This document shows, piece by piece, positions 25,811 through 41,547 of a stretch of 64,000 nucleotides of DNA. Source of the DNA: Rhizoctonia solani (taxonomy: Eukaryota; Basidiomycota; Agaricomycetes; Cantharellales; Ceratobasidiaceae); assembly GCF_016906535.1 (NCBI RefSeq), contig NC_057372.1:2585501-2649500 (forward strand), in the 5' to 3' direction. Position numbers and translations under genes: made by a program. Positions within the stretch are counted from its first letter, which is position 1; each line of letters opens with the position of its first letter. The notes beneath the pieces are model-generated. The model was not told the origin of the DNA. It did no database searches and worked only from the letters and a program-made list of their open reading frames with translations.

Positions 25811-28800
25811 TCAGTCACGCTTTGTGCGAGGGGGGATGGTCCAGAAAGTGATGGCCGAGAGCGAGGCCAGAACAATCTACAATAAGATGTGAATATATTC
25901 CCGCCGCTGGTTCTCCGACACTTACTATTACGGGCGGCAGAATCCGTAGACCAGGACCAACCTTCCCTACTACTATGCCGAAAAGTAGTGGACCAAGAGT
26001 GGCACCAACAAGGCCCAATCCTTTTAAATGGTTAATATTAAGTTATACTCCATGTGCGTGAATATGTACCGATGGTAATAGATATGACTATACCCTTCAA
26101 ACTCGGTGGGACACGAGCAGAAACTATCGAGAGAATACCAGGTGTGTTAGGACTGTAAATTATCAAAGTGTCAGTTATAATAATGCTTTGATCCCGCGCA
26201 TACACCCACCCCAGGAAAAATCCAGCGATAGCAATAGTTGCCCAGTTGGTGAAAGGAGAAGTGAAGTTCCACAACACTGCCAGTGCTCCTCCTGCGCATG
26301 CAAGCAGTAGAGTGTTCCCAAGTCTCTCACGTACATGGATAAAAGGAAGCGAAAAGAAGATCCGACCGCATGTAAGACCTGTGCAGTATATTTCATTTCT
26401 CAGCCGGATAATTTCAGATAGTAGGGAAAATACTCGCCGGCCCAAAACATGGATAATTGATAGCGGGAGACGTCTGGCTCCGAGCCTTTGGCCTCAATAA
26501 GGTAAGATGTAAGCCACTATATAGCCATTTATTAGTAGAGATCTTATCCCAGGGAGCCAAAGTTCGTACACTACTTAATGTATCGCTGATCGCGAAACTA
26601 AGAATAATGAGAATTATCCCAATCCTACAAAGCATTATCAGCTCGTATAACAGAATAATTCATAGGGAGTCTCACCAAGTAATCGGGAGTCGCATTATCT
26701 GTATAAAACTCGTACGTGCGCTTCGTTGCTCAGTATTTTCATGATGCTCGTGGTCGGATGGGGTAACATAATCTTTGAAGAGTACAACATGGCAAAGGGT
26801 AACAAGCAAAGCAAGAGAAAGAGGGAACCAATAATACGTCTAGAGATTCTGTCAAAAACATCGTCGAAAGTCTTTAGCGTCTCACTTACGTTCCATGGAA
26901 CGCCAGCCTTAACTAGCGCTCCTATAATAAAAGGAGAGACCAACTAAGACCATACATAAGACAATAGTTTACTATCTAAATACAGTACGCTTACCGCCCC
27001 AAGCTGAGCTGGAACAATTAGTTGAAGATTTAGTCATTGTAAACACTCTGAACTTACCCCGAAGAACGCATACAATATATTCATAAATTTGCTGTTATCA
27101 AACTGTGCTCAGATTGTCAGGAACTAATTCACATTACAATAATTAAGTACTCACATGAGAAACAATACTGGTTAAACAGGCTTCGTAGAAGCCTCCGCCG
27201 AACCCCATCAACCCAAGCCCAGTTATCACGAGTGGGAAAGGGGGTGCAAATGAAATTAACAAAGACCCTCCGGCGTACAAAAGGCCAGCGATCTTGAGTC
27301 ACCGCTGTCAGGTCAGCTGACATTCAGTCGGGAGGACCCCCGATTATCCCGGGGGAGGCTTCTTCGGCTTCCGGACATGGATCCTAGTGGCCGGGAGGGG
27401 GAGGCATCGTTTTTTCCGGACATGAAGCCCTGGTTGGAGGGGGGTAGGCATCGTGCAAATCCGGACATGAAGGGGTCGCCGCGGCCCGAGGCTTCTTCGG
27501 CTTCCGGACATCACGTGGAGGTCCATCCTCCGGGGAAAATTTTTTCCGGGCGCTAACGCCGTCAAAGGGTCACTTTTGATCGTAACGGTATTCAACTTAC
27601 AGCCTCGCTCGGGGCTAGGTTATGTTTCTAGTATATCAACCTACTGTATTTACTAGTTTAAGTTGAATTTATTGTTTTCCCATTCCGTTTTGAGCTTGAT
27701 GCCCCGGGTATATGCGTTTGCATTTGGCTTATAATTACCAACACTCGGGGTTATTTTCTGAGCTTCGCACACAAATTTTTCGTTGGTGTTAGTGATTTAC
27801 GTGACCATAGCCAGAGTCAGAGCTCCTTCGTGCTCGAATTTCCATCTCGTGCGAGTACTATGGGAAGTTTAGGCAAATTGTCTGCGCGTAATATCATTGC
27901 GCCCGGGCAGGATATAATCGAACAGAACAGCGCGCTTTCCATCCCCAATATTTTCTTAAATTTGCTCCCCGCCTTTGATGCTCCAGTCCCCGATGCTCTT
28001 CGATTCACTTTCCCACCTCTGAATAATAATTCGCCCGAGCAAATCGCCTCTTCTACGACTCGTTTCCACGATCATTTGCCCACAGCAATTGGTGCGGATC
28101 TCATTGGTCATTCGATTCCCGATCCTACACTCTTCCTATCTCTGCGGAAAGAGTGGCAGAATGTACAGCCCGATGAAGTCCAGTCGATATTCCATGTGAC
28201 AACGATGGAAACGCTCATTATTACCCAATCTGGATATTGACATGGTGGGAATTAGTGCTATCAGGCAGACAGAAACAGGACCAATGGCGTAGCGCGTGTG
28301 ACTGGCTATCCCAAGCTAAATCGACTTCAAACCACCCGGCTGCTTTACAAGTTTTCACTCAAGCATGGGATTATATATCGCATATAGGATGGGACACTGC
28401 AATTCCGTTCGAAACCAGATGCTCTGCCGCTGATCTATCGTTCTTTCTCTCAAACAATTGGTTGGCCACTCGACATATTGATTGGATGCTCGAATCGGCG
28501 CAGCTCCGCTTTGAATCACGCGAACCAGGCGAGGCTCAATTGCGACCTCCCCATAATTCAGTTATTTTCTACTCACCCGAAGTCCTCCGGGGCATTATTC
28601 GACGATTCGAAACCATTCCACCCAGTATTCCTCCCGAAGCGATCTCTCGGTTTCTTTCGCCACTTCAAAATCGGATTCGAAATGGGGAGCGCCCACTGCT
28701 CTATACCGTCTATAACTACTCTGACGTACACTGGATCGCGCTAGAGGTTGACTTCAACCGGCAGGTCATCCGTTATGGCGACTCGATGGGTGGCCAGAGA

Positions 28801-31800
28801 AGTTCGGCTCGCATTCGGAATATAATCAACGCCTGGCTGAAAGCGACTTGGGGTTACGACAAATTTGTGTCTGAACAGATGCCATGCGGTACTCAAGTGG
28901 ACGATGCGACTTCCTGTGGAGTTTGTGCGGTCAATACCATTGAAAGGCAGGTCTTTGAAGACCCATTATGGGACGAAGGTCTTGCCTCGGCATATCGGGC
29001 ATCAAAATTTGTGGAAATAGCGTACCGAATATTAGTGCCGAATGTAAGCTTCTCCTTGTGCCTATTGCTGATCCCGTGTATCTACTAAACATATTTATTT
29101 CAAAGGGATCTGATTCCATTATCAACCCCCCATTGCCGATATCGCGCATATTGGCCAATTCGTTAGCTGGGTCAATCGGACAAGGTTTATTTATTGCCGA
29201 GCCCCCAACATCTCCTCATCAAGCCTCCGGTTATCTCTCCTCCGATGACAATTTCTTCGATGGATTTTCTTCAGATGTAATCGAGAATGTCGAATTCAAC
29301 GCCTTAAACTTATCCGATGACCAGACCGATGGGGATGCAACGGATGATCCAGAGCTCGTGCATCGAAACCAGGTTTTGATACGCTCGGGATTGGACTCAG
29401 ACTCGAGTTCAGACTCCAACTCCAGCTCAGAGAGTTTGAAACGCCCGAGAAAACGACAAAAGCCTGGGAAGTCGGCAGCACATACCCGGACTGTCTTAGG
29501 AGCCGTTCGCGAAGGAAACTTTCAAATCGACAACCTTCGATGGGCTCGTTTTGAAGCAACGATCAAAGATCTCGATAATTATGCTGTGCTCGATCGCGAA
29601 AACCCACTATATGTACGACACTCGACATGCGGGAATAAGTTCAAGATGCGCCAGCCATACGATACCAAAAATTTCAAAACACACGTCCAAGCAAAAACTT
29701 GTGGGCCACAGGCGACAGGAGCATCCTCAGGAAGAAAGTCAAAAAGCTTGAAGAAGTCCGATGGTGCCGGAATGCTCCCTCTCACCTCGTTTGCTGGTTT
29801 CAAACGGCGTTCTGACCGCTCTATCAGCACTAGTGCAAATCTTACTGGCCCAGAGCCACAGCTTTCTACTCCTGGCTTGCCTGCTATGGTCGCATCTTCG
29901 TCATCTACTTCAACACCATCTTCTCAGCAGGAGATCGAGCGCATGTGCCCAGGCCTCTCGGAAGAAGATATGTCAGGTATATCTAATTACTTGCTTCGAA
30001 CTACGTATATTGGGGGAGGAAGTCGCGCATATAAGCACTTTGCGTTTGCTCTTTATTCAATACCATATGCCGAACTCGGAGCAGAAGAGCAACAGAATGT
30101 TCGGAACGAAGCTCATGGAAATGTCGCCTGGCGTGTAGATGAGTCCCGTAATGTTGTTATTGCCTCGGCCTGTACTCGCATTGCTCGAAGAGGGCGCACT
30201 TCAGACGGCAGATTGCGTTCATGCAAAAATTGTGCGGCTCTGTTGAAGCTCCGACGTTTCAGAGCCGCTGTCCGATATGAAGCAAAGCCGAATCAAAAAT
30301 TTACCAATAGGCGATGGGTTCGGGCATCCTCGTGCATGCAGTTTGCGAAGGTACACGGTGTGTATGAACTCATTGTCAACAAGGTAAGTTACATTCATTA
30401 TTATTTAATTTCCTTTCAAACTGAAAAATTGATGATTTTAGGACGAGAGGACTCCAGCGCAACGATTTCTTTTACAGGTACTTAAAGGCGAAATGAAAGA
30501 TCGAAAGATTTTCTGTGGGATGGTTGAAGTGATGGCAATGATGGACGACAAGGCGCTTCGTGGAGTTGGCCTTCAGAATGCCAAATATCCCCCCGAATTC
30601 GACCAATTTTGCCACGAAATCGTCAATATATCCCCACTTGCATATCAAACATTTCGTAACATCTTTGGGGGTCGAACTGCATCGAATTTTCGGTATGTAG
30701 CACCAGTTATTATCTAGTTACAGGCCTATTGAGAGTCTTTGTAGAGTAATCCGAGGCCGAGAGCGTCGTTTCCCTCTAGCAATCGACGATGGTGTTTTCG
30801 AAATTGCACAGATTTATTTTTCTTCGATTAATTACACAGGCCCGGTGTGCTTGTCATGCGATGACACCAAGCTCCTGCCCGCTCTCAAAACCTACTACGA
30901 TACAAGTACAAAACTGTGGTATTTGCTTGGCGGAACTACGGGCGCCATCGCTGTTGCAAGCACAGAAGAACTTACGTCAATTCTGAAGGATGGGAAACTT
31001 TCCAAGGCTTCGAAGGTACGATCCTTAAACTAGCGCTGGACTTGGGCCTAATCCCTATTATAGCTTCGGCTCTGGGTTTTACAGGTCCCATTGCCGCATA
31101 TACCCCCTCTTGCCATTGCTGCACTACCAATTGCCTCAAATGCTACGACCCAGTCACTTATTGGCTACTTGAAACTTGTCATTCAAGGCCTACTTGCCCG
31201 AGGAATACATGTCATTTCGTATGCTACGGATGGCAGCGCAATCGAACAAAATATCCAGGAGTCACTCTTTATGTCCATGGATAAATACCGACACTATACT
31301 GTCCCGCATCCTTCACGGCGCCTTCCCAACAGCCTATCTACTCCAGACCCCTTGGACTTCAAACTAGGTCTCTTAGACGGCAAGACCAAGGATAATCCAT
31401 GTGTAATCATCCAGGATAGTAAACACGCACTCAAAACATTGCGTAATACCCTATACTCAGGTGCTCGGCTTTTAGTAATGGGTTCCAGGACACCAATGTA
31501 TTCTCAAGTTCGCGACATTGCTGAAGATCCCGATTCAACCCTCCATCGTCGCGATGTCGAAAATAACGATCGGCAGGACGATGTTTCCACGGAATGTGTA
31601 TTCAACCAGTTCACACTTTCATTCGTAGTCAAAAAACGACCCCAGTACCTTGGCTTAGCAGTCTATCTATACATAGCAGGTGAACTCGGTGATGCATACC
31701 AGAGCCGACACATTTTGCACGCAGATCGGCTGTGGATGGTACTTCGAGCAAAATTCTTCTTCGATTTCTGGCGACAATTTCTCCTGGACTCTGGCTACTT

Positions 31801-34588
31801 ATTATCTCGATATTTCATCTCGCAACAGGCTTTCAACATCTTAACAACAATAATTGAGGGCTTAATCTTGCTCATCTATGCTTATCGTGACTATATGCCC
31901 GAGGGGACTCCCCTTTTACCCTGGCTGCACTCGAGTGAAGCCTGCGAACACTTTTTTGCCGAAATGCGAAAGCTTGTTCCAGACTTTACATACCTTGACT
32001 TTATTTTCTCTGTGCCTAAACTTCGTGTTCTGCTCCGCGCATCCTATCGAAACAGTCCCGAGTTTTCCGCAGCATCGACAGAGCGTCAGAGGAAAGCAAC
32101 TGGCTACCAGCATACATACATGGATTCAACAAATGTTGACTTGTCACTTCTAGCTTGCTTCCCAACAGACGGCGAGATTGCAGAAATTGCATATATTGCA
32201 TACCGCGAGGCGATTCTACTTGCTCAGGCAGTGAATATACTTCCCGATGACCTGGTCCCTGCAACAGCGCTGGACCATACAAGTACATTTGATCAATCTG
32301 AAGAAGATACAAGCCCCGAGTCCAACACAGGTGTGGCAGAAGACTTATCATCAAGTGAAGCGTTTCAAGAGCTAGTTGAGCTTGCAGATGCCCACGACCT
32401 TCCGCTTGAATCAATTTCTATTCAACGCGATAACTTAGTGTATGCTAATGCGGCTCTTCAAACCGAGGCCACGGCTCTCATGTAAGTGGACAAAATCTCT
32501 CTAATTGTTCCCAAATGGCTGATAATATTTTCCTGCCACGGTGTTTTAGTGACAACCTTCCCCCCGAAAACGATGCCGATGTACTGCTTGACCGCACAGC
32601 CGTTGAGGAACATACAAAATCGACCACAGAAATGTCTGACCCCAACTTTCTTGAGTCACAAATTCAAGATATGAATAGCGAAACCTTTCCCCAACAACGC
32701 TCTTTGGTCGAGCTCAACTTTGATATCCTACTGCAGATCCGACAGCGCCATCAAAATCCACGCGCACTCAAGAGTAGCAAAAATTATGCAAAATTTAAGG
32801 CAGGCGTGAGCATATATTGTAGTCACTCATCGTCAACACTGATTATTGATATACGATCATACATAGCTACTAGGTAAAACTGCCTCCCAACAAGGGGAGG
32901 TCCTTCCAGGCTCATTGGCTACCCCGCACGCATCGGAAGGACTATCAACAGAGACAAGTCACGCAGCGCTAGCTCGCTCGTTCTTGCAGACATTGCGCGA
33001 TCATGAGCTTAGTAGTCATAAGATCTCCCCCCGCCTACAACGCTGGATTGTAAGTGGGGGTGAGACGGATGGACAATTCAAGGGCAACACAGCAAATGCT
33101 AAAAAAGCCGCAGAGACCCGTGCAGACTCCGTAAGTAATGTTTCAAGTTCGCTACTTTACCAGAAAAACGTTGTAAATAACCGAATTCTTGATAGTATGT
33201 CAAACTTCGACGCGATTGCTTGCGGAAACGCGGCATTCCCAGGCTACTCGAAGATATTGCCACGGCACGAATTACTATCATTGACCCAATCAAACCCGGG
33301 ACTTTTGTCTGGATTATGTTGGAAAAGCAAATTATGCTTGGACGAGGTAAGTCTTGACTCATATTTATGCAGAAAAACTCAAACTGGATATTACAGTTAT
33401 GGCTATATACATCAAGGAGGGCGGATACAATGGGATGAACCTATGGGTCCCCCAGACCACTCATCTCGGGCACATCTCATATGTCGCAGTCCAAACCTAT
33501 CAGAAGGTTGCATCGCGGGCCAAGTATCGTGCTATACATCTTGGTCGGCCAATGGAGATCCCGTACTACCAACTTGTACCGACAAACGAGCTCTTGATGC
33601 GCGTCGGCTTCGTAAACACGCCAGGCTCGGAAACTGAGGACATCGAATTGAAGGATCGCCACATTCTCGACGAGAGAGATGAATTGGCGCGTCTTTTACC
33701 CGAACTAGAGAAGGCCGGTATACCACGAGTGGGTTCAAAAGCCAGAACGGGATCGTAAAAGGAAAATATGTATATAGATATAGATATGTACATTTAAGCG
33801 CCGGGCGCATACGGCCCGAGGCATCGTTCAACTTCCGGACATGGAGGGTTTGGGCTCCGAGGCATCCGCGGGTTCCGGATATGAGTCATATAGGTGGCCG
33901 CCGAAAAGCTTCCGGATATGAACACTAGTAGGAGGCCGGATTTCCGAAGAAGCCTCCCCCGGGATAATCGGGGGTCCTCAGTCGGGTAAGGTATAGTCAC
34001 GGGCTCACAAGCAACACAGAACGTGTCCCAATAGCATTCTGAAGCACGGAATTAAGCATGCACGAAATCAGGTAGCTGCGGAGTTTGATGATTAAATTAT
34101 GGGTTAAAATAAAATAGTTTTGATACATACCCTCCAAATCCAGCAAGGAAGACAAGCGATACGATAGCGTAAGGCAAGTCATAATGTTCCTGTATTGAAG
34201 GGAGATTGGCTCCGGTGGCTGTATCGTTTAGGCCTACAGCAAAAACACCCATACAAGCCTAAAAACGAGAGTGAGACATGGGTGTCACTGCCGCCTTGTT
34301 ATAACTTGTACATACTCCAAGAAGATATAAAACTTTGTCATCGATGAAGATGTTCCCAACCCGAAGGCCTGAGTCTATGGCTAAATCGATCGAGCCGCTT
34401 TCTCCTCGGCTTGAGTCGATTGTATGAGCGTCAAGGTCTGGGGGACCTGGGTTCAAGAAGTACTGTTGGTCGCCTACCAAGTGGCCGCTGAATGTGCCAT
34501 AATGAGAATCGGAGCGTTCAAGCGGTCGGTCGTGGTCCAAAATCGGGAGCGTTTCAACTTCTGCTTGGCAAACAACTGTCTGGCTCAT
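25811..34588 (-). CDS. BSC6-like MFS transporter B, interrupted by a transposon in one intron
   Basis: Tandem paralogue of transporter A with matching blocks: an N-terminus rich in acidic residues (MSQTVVCQAEVETLPILDH), a helix-1 region, IGTRSVLL, IAGLLYAGGSL, MVSPFIIGALVKAGVPWN-type residues, and an end at FWTIPPRTKRD (TGA 25811-25813). Between the exon ending in SVLL (34009) and the exon beginning IAGLL (27292) the intron is 6,716 nt because it holds the whole element at 27333-33978. Taking out the element and one copy of its 8-bp target duplication leaves a 62-nt intron with GTGAGC donor and CAAG acceptor, normal for this genome. The coding sequence itself is not broken by the insertion. 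Expression may still be affected, since such a long intron is unusual in fungi. Confidence 0.78.
27325..27332. repeat. Target-site duplication, left copy (CAGTCGGG)
   Basis: CAGTCGGG directly precedes the left terminal repeat and recurs directly after the right one (33979-33986). An 8-bp duplication is typical of hAT, P and KDZ-type DNA transposons. Confidence 0.9.
27333..27367 (+). repeat. Left terminal inverted repeat of the transposon (35 bp)
   Basis: Matches the reverse complement of 33944-33978 at every position. Internally it is nearly palindromic (CCCCCGATTATCCCGGGGG). Confidence 0.92.
27369..27513 (+). repeat. Left subterminal direct repeats (TTCCGGACATG)
   Basis: Four copies of a 12-bp motif close to TTCCGGACATGR start at 27369, 27414, 27459 and 27502, spaced about 45 bp apart. 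They probably bind the transposase, as subterminal repeats of other DNA transposons do. Confidence 0.8.
27860..33758 (+). CDS. Transposon protein: Ulp1-like protease domain joined to RNase-H-like transposase
   Basis: One multi-exon gene of roughly 1,800 codons. Exons are about 27860-29043, 29106-30383, 30442-30692, 30745-31015, 31064-32481, 32550-32805, 32874-~33130 and two more, to TGA-type end at 33758. The N-terminal half has a C48/Ulp1 peptidase pattern: His in DVHWIALEVD (28729), Asp in RYGDSMGG (28780), Gln in CGTQVDD and Cys in TSCGVCAVN (28915). A Ser/Asp-rich linker and a possible zinc-binding segment (HSTCGNKFKM...KTCG) follow. The transposase part has acidic candidates in CDDTKLLP (30860), YATDGSAIEQN (31229) and SEACEHFFAEMR (31937), plus IQDSKHALKTLRNTLYSGA as in P-type transposases. 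One-base losses at about 28234 and 32964 break the literal frame. Two separate proteins instead of a fusion remain possible. Confidence 0.8.
33833..33921 (+). repeat. Right subterminal direct repeats (TTCCGGAYATG)
   Basis: Three copies at 33833, 33873 and 33910 are in the same orientation as those at the left end. The latter two read GGATATGA instead of GGACATG. Confidence 0.8.
33944..33978 (-). repeat. Right terminal inverted repeat of the transposon (35 bp)
   Basis: Perfect inverted copy of 27333-27367, followed at once by the second target-site copy. Confidence 0.92.
33979..33986. repeat. Target-site duplication, right copy (CAGTCGGG)
   Basis: Identical to 27325-27332. It marks the insertion point within the intron of transporter B, 22 bp from the intron's donor side. 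Confidence 0.9.
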
Positions 34589-35094: not shown

Positions 35095-36477
35095 TCATTC
35101 GCTGGTCAAGGCATCGACTATCCAGGAATTGTCAACAAGAGAATCATTCGAAAAATCTCAGAGTAGAAAACTCACGCTGATCTTGATACATTTGTTGTCG
35201 CATGGGGTCTATTTGGATCAGTCGCTCCGTAAGAGTTCTACATTCCCGCAGGAGGTCAGGTTTCGCGGCCGAATCGTGACTGGCTAATAAAGACTTGTAG
35301 TGCACAAGTGCTTGTAGTGGCCCTACAAGTGGTTCAGAAACGACTTAACGAGAAGGCACAATGACTTACATTTGCTATCAGACCCAACCTCCACAACAAG
35401 CTCTTCAATTGAGCTGATCTCAGATTTCACGGTTACGGCGTCATCTCCTTCACACACTTCAAGTTAATCACCTAACACCTCAAGAACCGAGGTGTAGCAG
35501 CCCACCTTTCCCAATAAGCCATCGGTGGTACAGCCAAGCGCTCTGATCGCCCGGGTCTGTCCACAGAGCATTCCTCACAAATTCAAACTCTGTGCAGCTC
35601 AACATCAGTGTCACTTGGGCTTGAAGCTTTCTGTTCACCTTCAGATTTAGCGGCCGCTTCTAGCTCTGGGCAATCTCTCCATAGTACCCCAAATACCTTC
35701 GTCCGTTGATGCCATGCACTAAAATTGGAAAAGTTCTGTTCTATCTTACGAGTAGTGTATGCCAATTCAGATTCGGGGGATCGACGATCAGGCTCGGGCA
35801 CCGAGGCCAAAACGTAGCGTCTATAGTTCCAAGCGTGGAAATTTCTTGAGTCTCTGTCCAGCATTTTCTCGACGATGGCAAGTTCGCGTGCCCAAATGCT
35901 CGATTTCCACGACTTTTCGGCCCCCTCTGGACCATCTGGAATATTTTCCAAGCACCAACGGCGGTGGTTCCAGAGCCAGTAGACCTTGGGGTGTACTTGC
36001 AGTGCAGCCAAAGTCAACGAAAGCTCACCATCTACAGCCTTGAATACTTCTTCAGGAGAGCTTGCCGAACCGCGAGTTATAGATACTCGAAATTGCACCG
36101 ATGTGACCATATCTTACCTTTTCGGGAAAATGCCGTCCGCTAATACTGTTCTTCGAAAATTCCATGCAGTATACAGTTCCGGATATAGGGCTAATAGAGT
36201 TGTGGTCGCTTCAAGTGATTCCTGGCTTAAATCTTCCTTGGATCTCTGGAACGAAACAAATCCTTTAAGTTCGAACCCGCCAGTGCATAACGTAGCTGCT
36301 CACGCGATCAAATACATCTTTTTCGATTGAAACCAATCTGTCAATCTTTACACGCTCCCGCTCCTTTTGCGCTTTTATAGCCTCTTCTGTTTGCTTGATG
36401 CGCTTGATACCGTGCTCCTACCAAGCCATTGAATAATAGACTCGGATCAGACCAAATCACCCAACCATTATAAGTTA
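35095..36477 (-). CDS. BET4: Rab geranylgeranyltransferase alpha subunit
   Basis: Alpha subunit of GGTase II, which attaches geranylgeranyl groups to Rab GTPases with the beta subunit and REP. The gene shows PPTA-type repeats: [63 protein letters not shown] and [19 protein letters not shown]-terminal parts are [11 protein letters not shown] and [15 protein letters not shown]. What looks like a stop after [16 protein letters not shown] is explained by a 49-nt intron (GTGAAC...CACAG) that joins AAKSE to [10 protein letters not shown] in frame. The start is least sure. [12 protein letters not shown] is preceded by splice acceptors rather than ATG, which suggests a first exon of little more than ATG at about 36477. 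The end at about 35095 also rests on one intron model. Confidence 0.85.
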
Positions 36478-38744: not shown

Positions 38745-39080
38745 AGCCCCATGTGTGGCAAGACTTATTGTGAAACTGCACAGTTGGGGTCTACTACTAT
38801 CTCTTGCAAGTATTTACTGAGAATCCGCGCAATTCAAATAGTTTGCTATATTTGGTAAATGTTGGGATTACGAGCACAGTTGTGTGTCTAGTTTCTGTAC
38901 CAATCATCCTTGAGAGTGACTCACCCTGACCCTGACGGTGGCGTGATTAGTCATCATTAAGATGCCTCTCGGTACCGCGCTGGTGCTAGTTTCTCATTCT
39001 ACTTTCACATATAAATACTCACGGGCTCCTCCTTGCTTTGAATCAAAACACGGTCCATCGAAACTGCGCATTCTGTGAAT
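38745..39080. other. Intergenic before HEL2
   Basis: 336 bp with no recognised element. Probably the 3' region of the SUKH gene and promoter of HEL2; a TATAAATA motif lies at about 39009. Confidence 0.45.
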
Positions 39081-41547
39081 ATGTCCTCTAATAGTAACTC
39101 TTCGAATAATCGTCGTGGTCGAGGTGGTCGTCGAGGTGGACGTGGAGGAAGGGGTAATAACGCAACATCCAATGGGACAGTGCGATCATCCCCTGCTGCT
39201 CCAAATGGTTCTGCCAACTCGAATAAAGCAGCACCTACACCTGATACTACTAGCGCCGATTCTGACGAAATGATCTGCTGGATCTGCGCTGAACCTGTCA
39301 AATTCTACGCACTATCTGAATGTAATCATAGAACATGCCATGTTTGCGCACTACGACTCCGGGCTTTGTATAAACGCACCGATTGTACGTTTTGCAAGGT
39401 GGTTCAAATTTATCGATCAATGGGTGGCGAGGTGGCTCACCTTTGCCTTATTAGCATCCTCAAGTATCGGTTATATTCACAACGTCAGCGACAAAGGGTT
39501 ACTCAGACTTTACGCCAAACGACATTCCATTTTCCGATCCTAAACTTCAAATATCTTTCGAAACGAAAGAAATGATGGAGGATACAATGATCCTACTCCG
39601 GTTCAATTGTCCTGACGCGGATTGCGATGTCATTGCTCAAGGCTGGGGCGACCTCAAATGGCACGTAAAAGAGAAACACGATTCGATACTGTGGTAAGCA
39701 TAATTTTTAGATATGTTAAAGAAAAATCCTTTATTTTTGGCTGCAGTGATCTGTGTATTCGTCACAAGAAAATCTTTGCCCATGAACACACGCTCTACTC
39801 CCCTGTCACGTTTAGTCTTCATATGCCATCGGTCCATACTCGCCGGTTCAGTGCTCAAGAAAAAGCTAACGCGAGTTTACCTGATATTGTCCATCCAATG
39901 TGTCAATTTTGTCGGGAATGCTCCTTTGGTGATGATGAACTCTTTGCGCATCTACGAGAGCATCACGAGGAATGCTTCGTCTGCAAGCGAGAAGGGGTCA
40001 GAGACCAATAGTGGGTACCAGCATTTATCCGCCATTATTCCCCTCTCATAAATTCTAGCTTTCGTAATTATGAGCAGCTTGAACAACATTTCAAAGAGCG
40101 ACATTATCCCTGCACCCATCCCACATGCCTCGAGCAAAAGTTTGTCGTATTCGCCACTCAACTCGATCTTCAGGGCCATCAGGTGGATGTCCATGGAGAA
40201 CAAATGTCGAGTCGGGATCGGCGAGATGCACGTCGTGTTGATCTTGCTTTTAGCTCCGGAACTCGAGGTGGTAGAGGTCGAGGCGGCCGGGTGCAAGTGA
40301 ATGAAACAACCGAAAGCAGAGCAAGAGAGCCTCCAGCACAAGCTACGACCCAACCACCTCCGCAACCAGGTCCCCCTCCAGGTCGAGGAAGTCGACGTGC
40401 TGCATTCGGCGCCTCTTTAACGGTCGGAGGGCCTAGTGCACAAAATGGATCACCGGCTTCTCAACAGGGGCCACCTCGACCCCCTCCTTCACGGACACCT
40501 GATCCTGATGTTGATCCCGAGACATTAGAGTAAGCATGGTAGTTCATTCGCAGAAGTTTTCTTTTTTCTCATTTGATAACAGGCAACACAATCAATTCCT
40601 CAGTCTTTTGGATTTGTATGCGTCCACAAACGGCGCAACAGCGATTCGAGGCGCGATTAGATCGTACAAATCGAATGAATCGAGCGCAAAGGACATGCTT
40701 ACAACCATTCGTACCGTGTTGGACGATAACATGAACGCAATGTCAACTTTAGTCAACGGTCTGGTTCCTCTATTTGACGAAGAAAAACGTGGTGATATCC
40801 TCAATGCATGGAATGGCATGAAGATCGAGGTAAGTTTGTCCTTGGTCACCAAGTAATGTGGTCCAACTAGAGCTCCATCATTAGCAACGAGATCAATTCC
40901 CATCTCTTACACCTACCTCTCTTGGATCTGGTTTTGCTGATATCGCAAGTGGCCGGGTTTTAAACGTCAAGCATTCAACTCGATCATCTGGTTCCCGAGC
41001 GGGCTCATCATCTCGTTCTACTGGTGCAGTATGGGACCGTGTCGAACGGGTTGCAGCTGGGCTCGGTGGGCCTACTCCCGCATTGCAATCCAGTGCCGCT
41101 CCCAAGCCTATCAAGCCGAATCCTTTCCCTCCGCTTGGTGGTGGTGCCGGTGGTGGTACTTCGCGGTCCGGTGCCTCGAGCTCGTCTACTCCATGGAGTG
41201 GCAGTGCGACGACACAAAGTTCACAACACATTATTATAGCACCTGCAAGAGCGCCCGAGCCGGTGAAGAATAATGCAGGAAGGCCCCCACCTATAACCAG
41301 CTCGAGTGCGTTCCCTGAACTTCCGAGCTCATCTGCCTCGAGAGCTGCGATCCCGAAGATGAGCGGAAACCAATCTTTGAAGAGGATCACTGGCGAATCT
41401 CCTGCTCTCGGTAGTGTATGGGGTGGAGGCTCAGAGAACAACACTCCTACAATCGAAGAACCGGCGCCTGCAACGAATGCTGGCGGGAAAGGGAAGAAGA
41501 AGAAAGGAAAGGAAACGTTATTCACATTGGGCTCGTTCCCTAACTAA
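39081..41547 (+). CDS. HEL2: RING E3 ubiquitin ligase Hel2/ZNF598 (ribosome collision sensor)
   Basis: E3 ligase that recognises collided ribosomes and ubiquitinates small-subunit proteins to start ribosome-associated quality control. An RG-rich N-terminus (RRGRGGRRGGRGGRG) precedes the RING (MICWICAEPVKFYALSECNH, RTCHVCALRLRALYKR, CTFCK). After an intron come HPQVSVIFTTS and FTPNDIPFSDPKLQISFE, then C2H2-type fingers (FNCPDADCDVIAQGWGDLKW, LCIRHKKIFAHEH, CQFCRECSFGDDELFAHLRE, CFVCKREG, HYPCTHPTCLEQKFVVF, LQGHQVDVHGE). A proline/RG-rich region, a helical block (LLDLYASTNGATAIRGAI) and a low-complexity tail ending KKKGKETLFTLGSFPN complete it. Exons join in frame. It is convergent with the D-serine dehydratase gene, 74 bp apart. 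Confidence 0.92.

Follow-up and report, generated by a model that had tools for sequence, protein, structure and literature searches.

The subject of this report is a DNA transposon at positions 27333–33978 of a 64,000-nucleotide stretch of the Rhizoctonia solani genome (assembly GCF_016906535.1, contig NC_057372.1, positions 2,585,501 to 2,649,500), which is referred to below, at its full length, as the window. The single gene of the transposon is predicted to join a peptidase domain of the Ulp1/SENP type to a transposase of the P-element type, and 12 of the 13 readable insertions of its family lie at a fixed distance of 4 bp from an outward E-box-like word, TCANNTG. We put at somewhat better than even (roughly 0.55) the chance that this is a Ulp1-joined P-type transposon brought to such sites by a host basic helix-loop-helix (bHLH) protein that tethers the transposase-DNA complex.

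Target sites of the family

The genome searched comprises 40.7 Mb in 16 contigs, and the sample consists of every insertion for which both flanks were fetched and readable, with an insertion that was duplicated at chromosome ends counted once. For the short chromosome-end copies, both flanks were available in five cases and one flank in two, and those at C1, C9, C10:50823, and C16:217981 fall outside the sample; the duplications of insertions X and Y were read once the flanks of two recombined copies had been re-paired. The TCANNTG word stands exactly 4 bp outward of the target duplication, on one side only, at the right end in seven insertions, at the left end in four, and beside a fold-back element with like ends in one. 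Elsewhere in all 26 flanks it is found just four times, at offsets 15, 29, 41, and 63. The E-box core among the 12 is CACGTG in eight, CACATG/CATGTG in three, and CAGCTG in the window copy. Insertion X is the one member of the sample without the word at this offset, and a 1-kb fragment at C16:1812365 with one end only, outside the 13, has no E-box at the offset on its readable side.

Apart from the word, the flanks have a mean identity of 25% and a maximum of 40%, and the 13 insertions therefore do not represent one repeated target. Within the genome, TCACGTGA occurs 2,910 times and its reversed word 675 times; a 4.3-fold excess of this kind would suit a regulatory site in wide use by the host. 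The probability of at least 4 of 13 falling at one offset by chance is 3e-13, or 2e-11 when 60 offsets are allowed; the pattern was spotted before it was tested, and the margin is large. Searches for a second family of the same kind returned only copies of the present one and a short stretch at C16:134892, the latter not in every search, and so the target pattern has no test on another family in this genome.

The transposon itself is complete at both ends, which carry inverted repeats of 35 bp that match without mismatch and are flanked by an 8-bp duplication, CAGTCGGG, as a preliminary description made from the letters of the window had claimed (Table 1). No second site in the window matches the end's first 24 bases at up to 3 mismatches, and none was obtained in 100 shuffles. 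Internal to the ends lie seven TTCCGGAYATG-like repeats, all on one strand and no more than 420 bp from the element ends (up to 2 mismatches), compared with one in the 5,806-bp interior of the element and 13 in the remaining 57,354 bp of the window. These subterminal repeats, TTCCGGACATG-like at the left end, are candidate transposase-binding sites.

The predicted gene and its protein

An intact copy on contig C2, L009, contains a predicted nine-exon chain of 1,804 amino acids. The public model P0002 (1,819 amino acids) agrees with this chain at 1,804 of 1,804 residues and differs by additions at two acceptors, seven residues (LRLWVLQ) at one and eight at the other. Because RLW is conserved in homologues, acceptor 31063 is preferred over 31084, giving a product of ∼1,811 amino acids. 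Thus, the ∼1,800 residues of the preliminary description are close to the predicted length, and its intron at 29044–29105 has GT..AG borders and keeps the frame in the predicted splicing. P0002, P0003, and P0010 are all Rhizoctonia solani proteins with RhiXN_ tags. The description of a complete single-gene transposon holds for the ends, the duplication, and the exon chain but not for the integrity of the gene in the window, which is 1 base short near 28200 when compared with the five other aligned copies, such that the frame from the ATG at 27860 stops after 126 codons. The peptidase stretch is open, as a 475-amino acid frame, in L009 and three further copies (L010–L012); it is interrupted in the window copy, in those on C15 and C6, and in the seventh copy (C2).

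Domain scans, residue conservation, and fold comparison all place the first part of the protein in the C48 (Ulp1/SENP) peptidases, with the expected fold and the catalytic His, Asp, Gln, and Cys; the His, Asp, and Cys lie where they were originally reported, and the Gln is placed at 28894. A NEDD8 protease ties in the fold comparison, and comparison of the Ulp1 exon of the window with SENP1 by sequence alone is not significant (E 0.16). A sequence profile of the family searched against the Protein Data Bank (PDB) matched Ulp1-type peptidases. The catalytic sets of both enzymes are carried within one predicted protein in 82 of 120 homologues, among them 75 of the 90 that are at least 1,500 amino acids long. 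It is unlikely that the two parts are made as separate proteins from two transcripts or are split after translation: 15 of those 90 long homologues lack the combination, and the peptidase could conceivably cleave its own chain, but L009, which is identical to L010–L012, has one open chain across the short intron, and the great majority of the long homologues have both sets together. Three proteins of the transposon group (P0001, P0094, and P0074) carry the public names "methionyl-tRNA aminoacylation" or "Methionine--tRNA ligase, mitochondrial" or a precomputed PF09334, perhaps through annotation transfer or fusion to a neighbor.

For the second part of the protein, the preliminary description proposed a P/KDZ-like transposase and a profile search. 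By sequence, scanning the second half against Pfam in single frames found no transposase family, and the family profile found no match to P in the PDB, in contrast to the peptidase half, which matches C48. The assignment to P consequently rests on the predicted fold, the catalytic signature, and one hit to a helix-turn-helix (HTH) domain. The predicted fold has an RNase H-like core in the P-type arrangement, with P as the best match, and conservation among homologues reveals candidate catalytic residues that make up both the DDE triad and the D(2)H motif by which the P superfamily is defined in the available part of PMC4168063. The P-type HTH (PF12017) scores above cut-off in P0070 and has E 5.5e-4 in a single one of the 12 members in A3, and Pfam scans gave no match to it for the window pieces or P0002. 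The 8-bp duplication typical of the superfamily is perfect in 12 of the 13 insertions and matches at 7 of 8 positions in the other. PHROGs gave no match for P0002. A structure model of the homologue P0031 predicts, with good confidence, a beta-rich domain at the C terminus.

Both KDZ (Zisupton) and hAT elements also make 8-bp duplications, according to the portion of PMC12730594 available, and Hermes (hAT) is the third Foldseek match (E 1.8e-5). However, no Pfam match to a KDZ transposase domain was found in the window pieces or the scanned homologues, and because the fold comparison puts P first, assignment to either group was set aside as highly improbable; of the original P/KDZ-like label, the P half is favored, and the interpretation in the preliminary description has partial support overall. 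There is also no Pfam match to a THAP domain in the window pieces, P0002, P0006, P0013, P0070, or P0081, and the element is therefore not filed as an animal-type P element; THAP is reported as absent from fungi in the accessible text of PMC7776569.

Table 1. Features of the transposon in the window, with the evidence for each
Feature	Position	Strand	Evidence and remarks
E-box-like target word TCAGCTGA	27313..27320	unstranded	4 bp outside left target site duplication; insertion table and offset scan
8-bp target site duplication CAGTCGGG, left copy	27325..27332	unstranded	sequence and copy alignment
Left 35-bp terminal inverted repeat	27333..27367	+	end comparison and genome search
Four subterminal TTCCGGACATG-like repeats	27369..27512 (starts 27369, 27414, 27459, 27502)	+	motif scan
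Exon 1	27860..29043	+	encodes N-terminal region plus Ulp1/C48 peptidase domain; frame interrupted near 28200 in window copy
C48 catalytic residues	28729..28917 (His 28729, Asp 28780, Gln 28894, Cys 28915)	+	homologue conservation and translation
Intron 1	29044..29105	+	62 bp, GT..AG; predicted; separates peptidase and transposase parts
Exon 2	29106..30383	+	linker; its conserved Cys/His positions may form a DNA-binding zinc finger
Exon 3	30442..30692	+	predicted
Exon 4	30745..31015	+	RNase H-like core begins; candidate first catalytic Asp 30860
Exon 5	31064..32481	+	candidate second catalytic Asp 31229, D(2)H motif (Asp-x-x-His) 31415/31424, catalytic Glu 31946
Exons 6-9	32550..33758 (32550-32805, 32867-33130, 33196-33346, 33397-33758)	+	predicted; C-terminal region
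Three subterminal TTCCGGAYATG repeats	33833..33920 (starts 33833, 33873, 33910)	+	motif scan; strand as at left end
Right 35-bp terminal inverted repeat	33944..33978	-	end comparison and genome search
8-bp target site duplication CAGTCGGG, right copy	33979..33986	unstranded	sequence and copy alignment

Copies and relatives in the genome

Comparison with other copies of the 35-bp end, as the preliminary description had suggested, yielded 13 perfect occurrences, which resolve into six full-length pairs of 6620–6649 bp, the window copy included. A seventh full copy, with one end slightly changed, is found at C2:378704-385322, and the seven are nearly identical. Three copies on C2 (L009, L010, and L011) and one on C4 (L012) are identical across 6649 bp. 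Alignment of the six full-length copies gives 37 differing columns: the window copy accounts for 3, each a one-base gap, and the C15 copy, L013, for 34 (gaps, or substitutions near gaps). The seventh copy, aligned to L009 in two pieces, has a few small gaps and, across ∼6,600 aligned bases, 1 substitution. The window copy, L013, and the seventh copy thus depart from the four identical ones almost wholly by small gaps, which are either assembly indel errors in very young copies or real small deletions. A copy on C6 encodes a protein that is ∼80% identical and contains stops.

L009 (C2:354579-362227) and the seventh copy (fetched as L014/L047/L053) are inverted with respect to one another and 17 kb apart, with exchanged target duplications: the flanks of L009 are GTGGCATA and AGGGTATT, and their partner duplications flank the seventh copy. 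This points to inversion of the intervening segment by recombination between the copies.

Shorter relatives, internally deleted or fold-back, are found on C5, C10, C12, and C13 and toward many chromosome ends; the short deleted forms whose ends are similar have likewise moved. One such relative, 1.2 kb long and internally deleted, lies 16–188 kb from the contig end in seven fetched loci (L018–L024) that share their flanks, with further places on C1, C9, C10, and C16; the shared flanks suggest one insertion that probably spread through duplication of chromosome ends. Beside the short fold-back relative L052 (C5:464870-465240), TCACATGATGGAG occurs twice within ∼90 bp, and the nearer occurrence contains the target E-box. 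Neighbors of the transposon in the window are a protein prenyltransferase alpha subunit (PPTA; 35586–36113, minus strand) and a RING-finger protein (39042–39572, plus strand).

Proposed reading of the E-box and relation to known systems

Movement of the element would be by cut and paste. The transposase would bind the subterminal TTCCGGACATG repeats, and a host bHLH dimer would read the E-box and hold the transpososome, such that joining takes place 4 to 12 bp away. Drosophila P uses GTP as a cofactor and cleaves its ends with a 17-nt stagger; the D-D-E residues of the present protein would likewise cut and join DNA, with GTP used as in P. The peptidase, for its part, may remove SUMO or a similar modifier from target-site proteins, such as the bound factor or chromatin proteins, or from the transposase itself, and removal of SUMO would open sites that are occupied or SUMO-silenced. 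More tentative, and on balance doubtful, is the broader proposal that a widespread fungal group of P-type elements docks at 4 bp on E-box-bound factors and employs a SUMO protease of its own to strip off or remodel the factor or SUMO-dependent silencing, so that a single polypeptide finds, clears, and inserts.

A host bHLH protein is favored as the reader because the CA..TG positions are fixed with a variable center, because a Pfam scan of P0002 gave no match to an HLH domain, and because the word is overrepresented in the host. Proteins of the bHLH type typically tolerate variation at the two central positions. Other observations would fit direct reading of the E-box by the element's own protein, through either the Cys/His-rich linker or the C-terminal beta-rich domain: the rigid offset is what would be expected if the reading domain were an integral part of the transpososome, Cys/His positions are conserved in the protein, a C-terminal beta-rich region is predicted in P0031, and one of the seven subterminal repeats overlaps TCACGTG (27511). 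Yet the other six repeats, which end in ACATG or ATATG followed by A/G, do not contain the E-box, and the bHLH-like tolerance and the lack of an HLH match in P0002 also speak against it; we regard direct reading as a real possibility that falls short of an even chance. That the association is a by-product of landing or survival in open, E-box-rich promoters seems scarcely credible: such an origin would be in keeping with the preference of Drosophila P for promoters and origins (as given in the available text of PMC7776569) and with the enrichment of TCACGTGA, but a regional bias yields no single spacing, and 12 words are found at offset 4, compared with 4 at the remaining offsets together.

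P elements of rust fungi (Repbase P-1_PSt, P-1_MLP, P-2_MLP, P-N1_MLP, and P-N2_MLP) were published in 2011, and a P element in a basidiomycete is therefore not new; they share with the present one the superfamily, the 8-bp duplications, and the existence of autonomous and short forms (PMC3164196, in the part available), whereas their hosts are rusts and the homologues of the present element come, by their names, from other basidiomycetes. The main text of PMC3164196 contains none of the words Ulp1, SUMO, protease, or peptidase. The element described here differs from Drosophila P, THAP9, and Galileo in having no THAP match and a Ulp1-like peptidase in front, and it has a target word beside the duplication at a fixed offset, whereas Drosophila P and Galileo prefer palindromes of 14 and 15 bp at the duplication itself (accessible part of PMC4168063); P transposition is called not site-specific, though with a target consensus, in the available portion of PMC7776569. 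With the Ulp1/SENP peptidases of C48 the domain shares the catalytic residues and fold, and it differs in that the predicted polypeptide also contains a transposase. The fungal KDZ elements (Kyakuja, Dileera, and Zisupton) have basidiomycete hosts and, for Zisupton, 8-bp duplications in common with it (PMC12730594, in part), but the transposase core predicted here is P-like. Neither a Ulp1-joined P element nor E-box-directed DNA transposition came up in searches of open-access papers, most of them covered as listings, or in the available parts of PMC12730594, PMC7776569, PMC3985635, PMC4168063, PMC10983969, PMC7181583, and PMC6399891; Repbase or subscription papers may already name the group.

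A second enzyme domain is joined to a P-type transposase in many predicted fungal proteins, and insertion of a DNA transposon at a set distance from a transcription factor word would, if true, count as an uncommon form of sequence-directed DNA transposition in eukaryotes and might serve as a tool. The identical copies and mobile short relatives make the question of what reads the E-box open to a direct approach with a short donor. The closest parallels in behavior are retrotransposons guided by a DNA-bound host protein, Ty3 with TFIIIB and Tf1 with Sap1. Their integration at a fixed distance beside the site of the host protein is the behavior proposed here, whereas they are long terminal repeat (LTR) retrotransposons with integrases and the present element is a DNA transposon.
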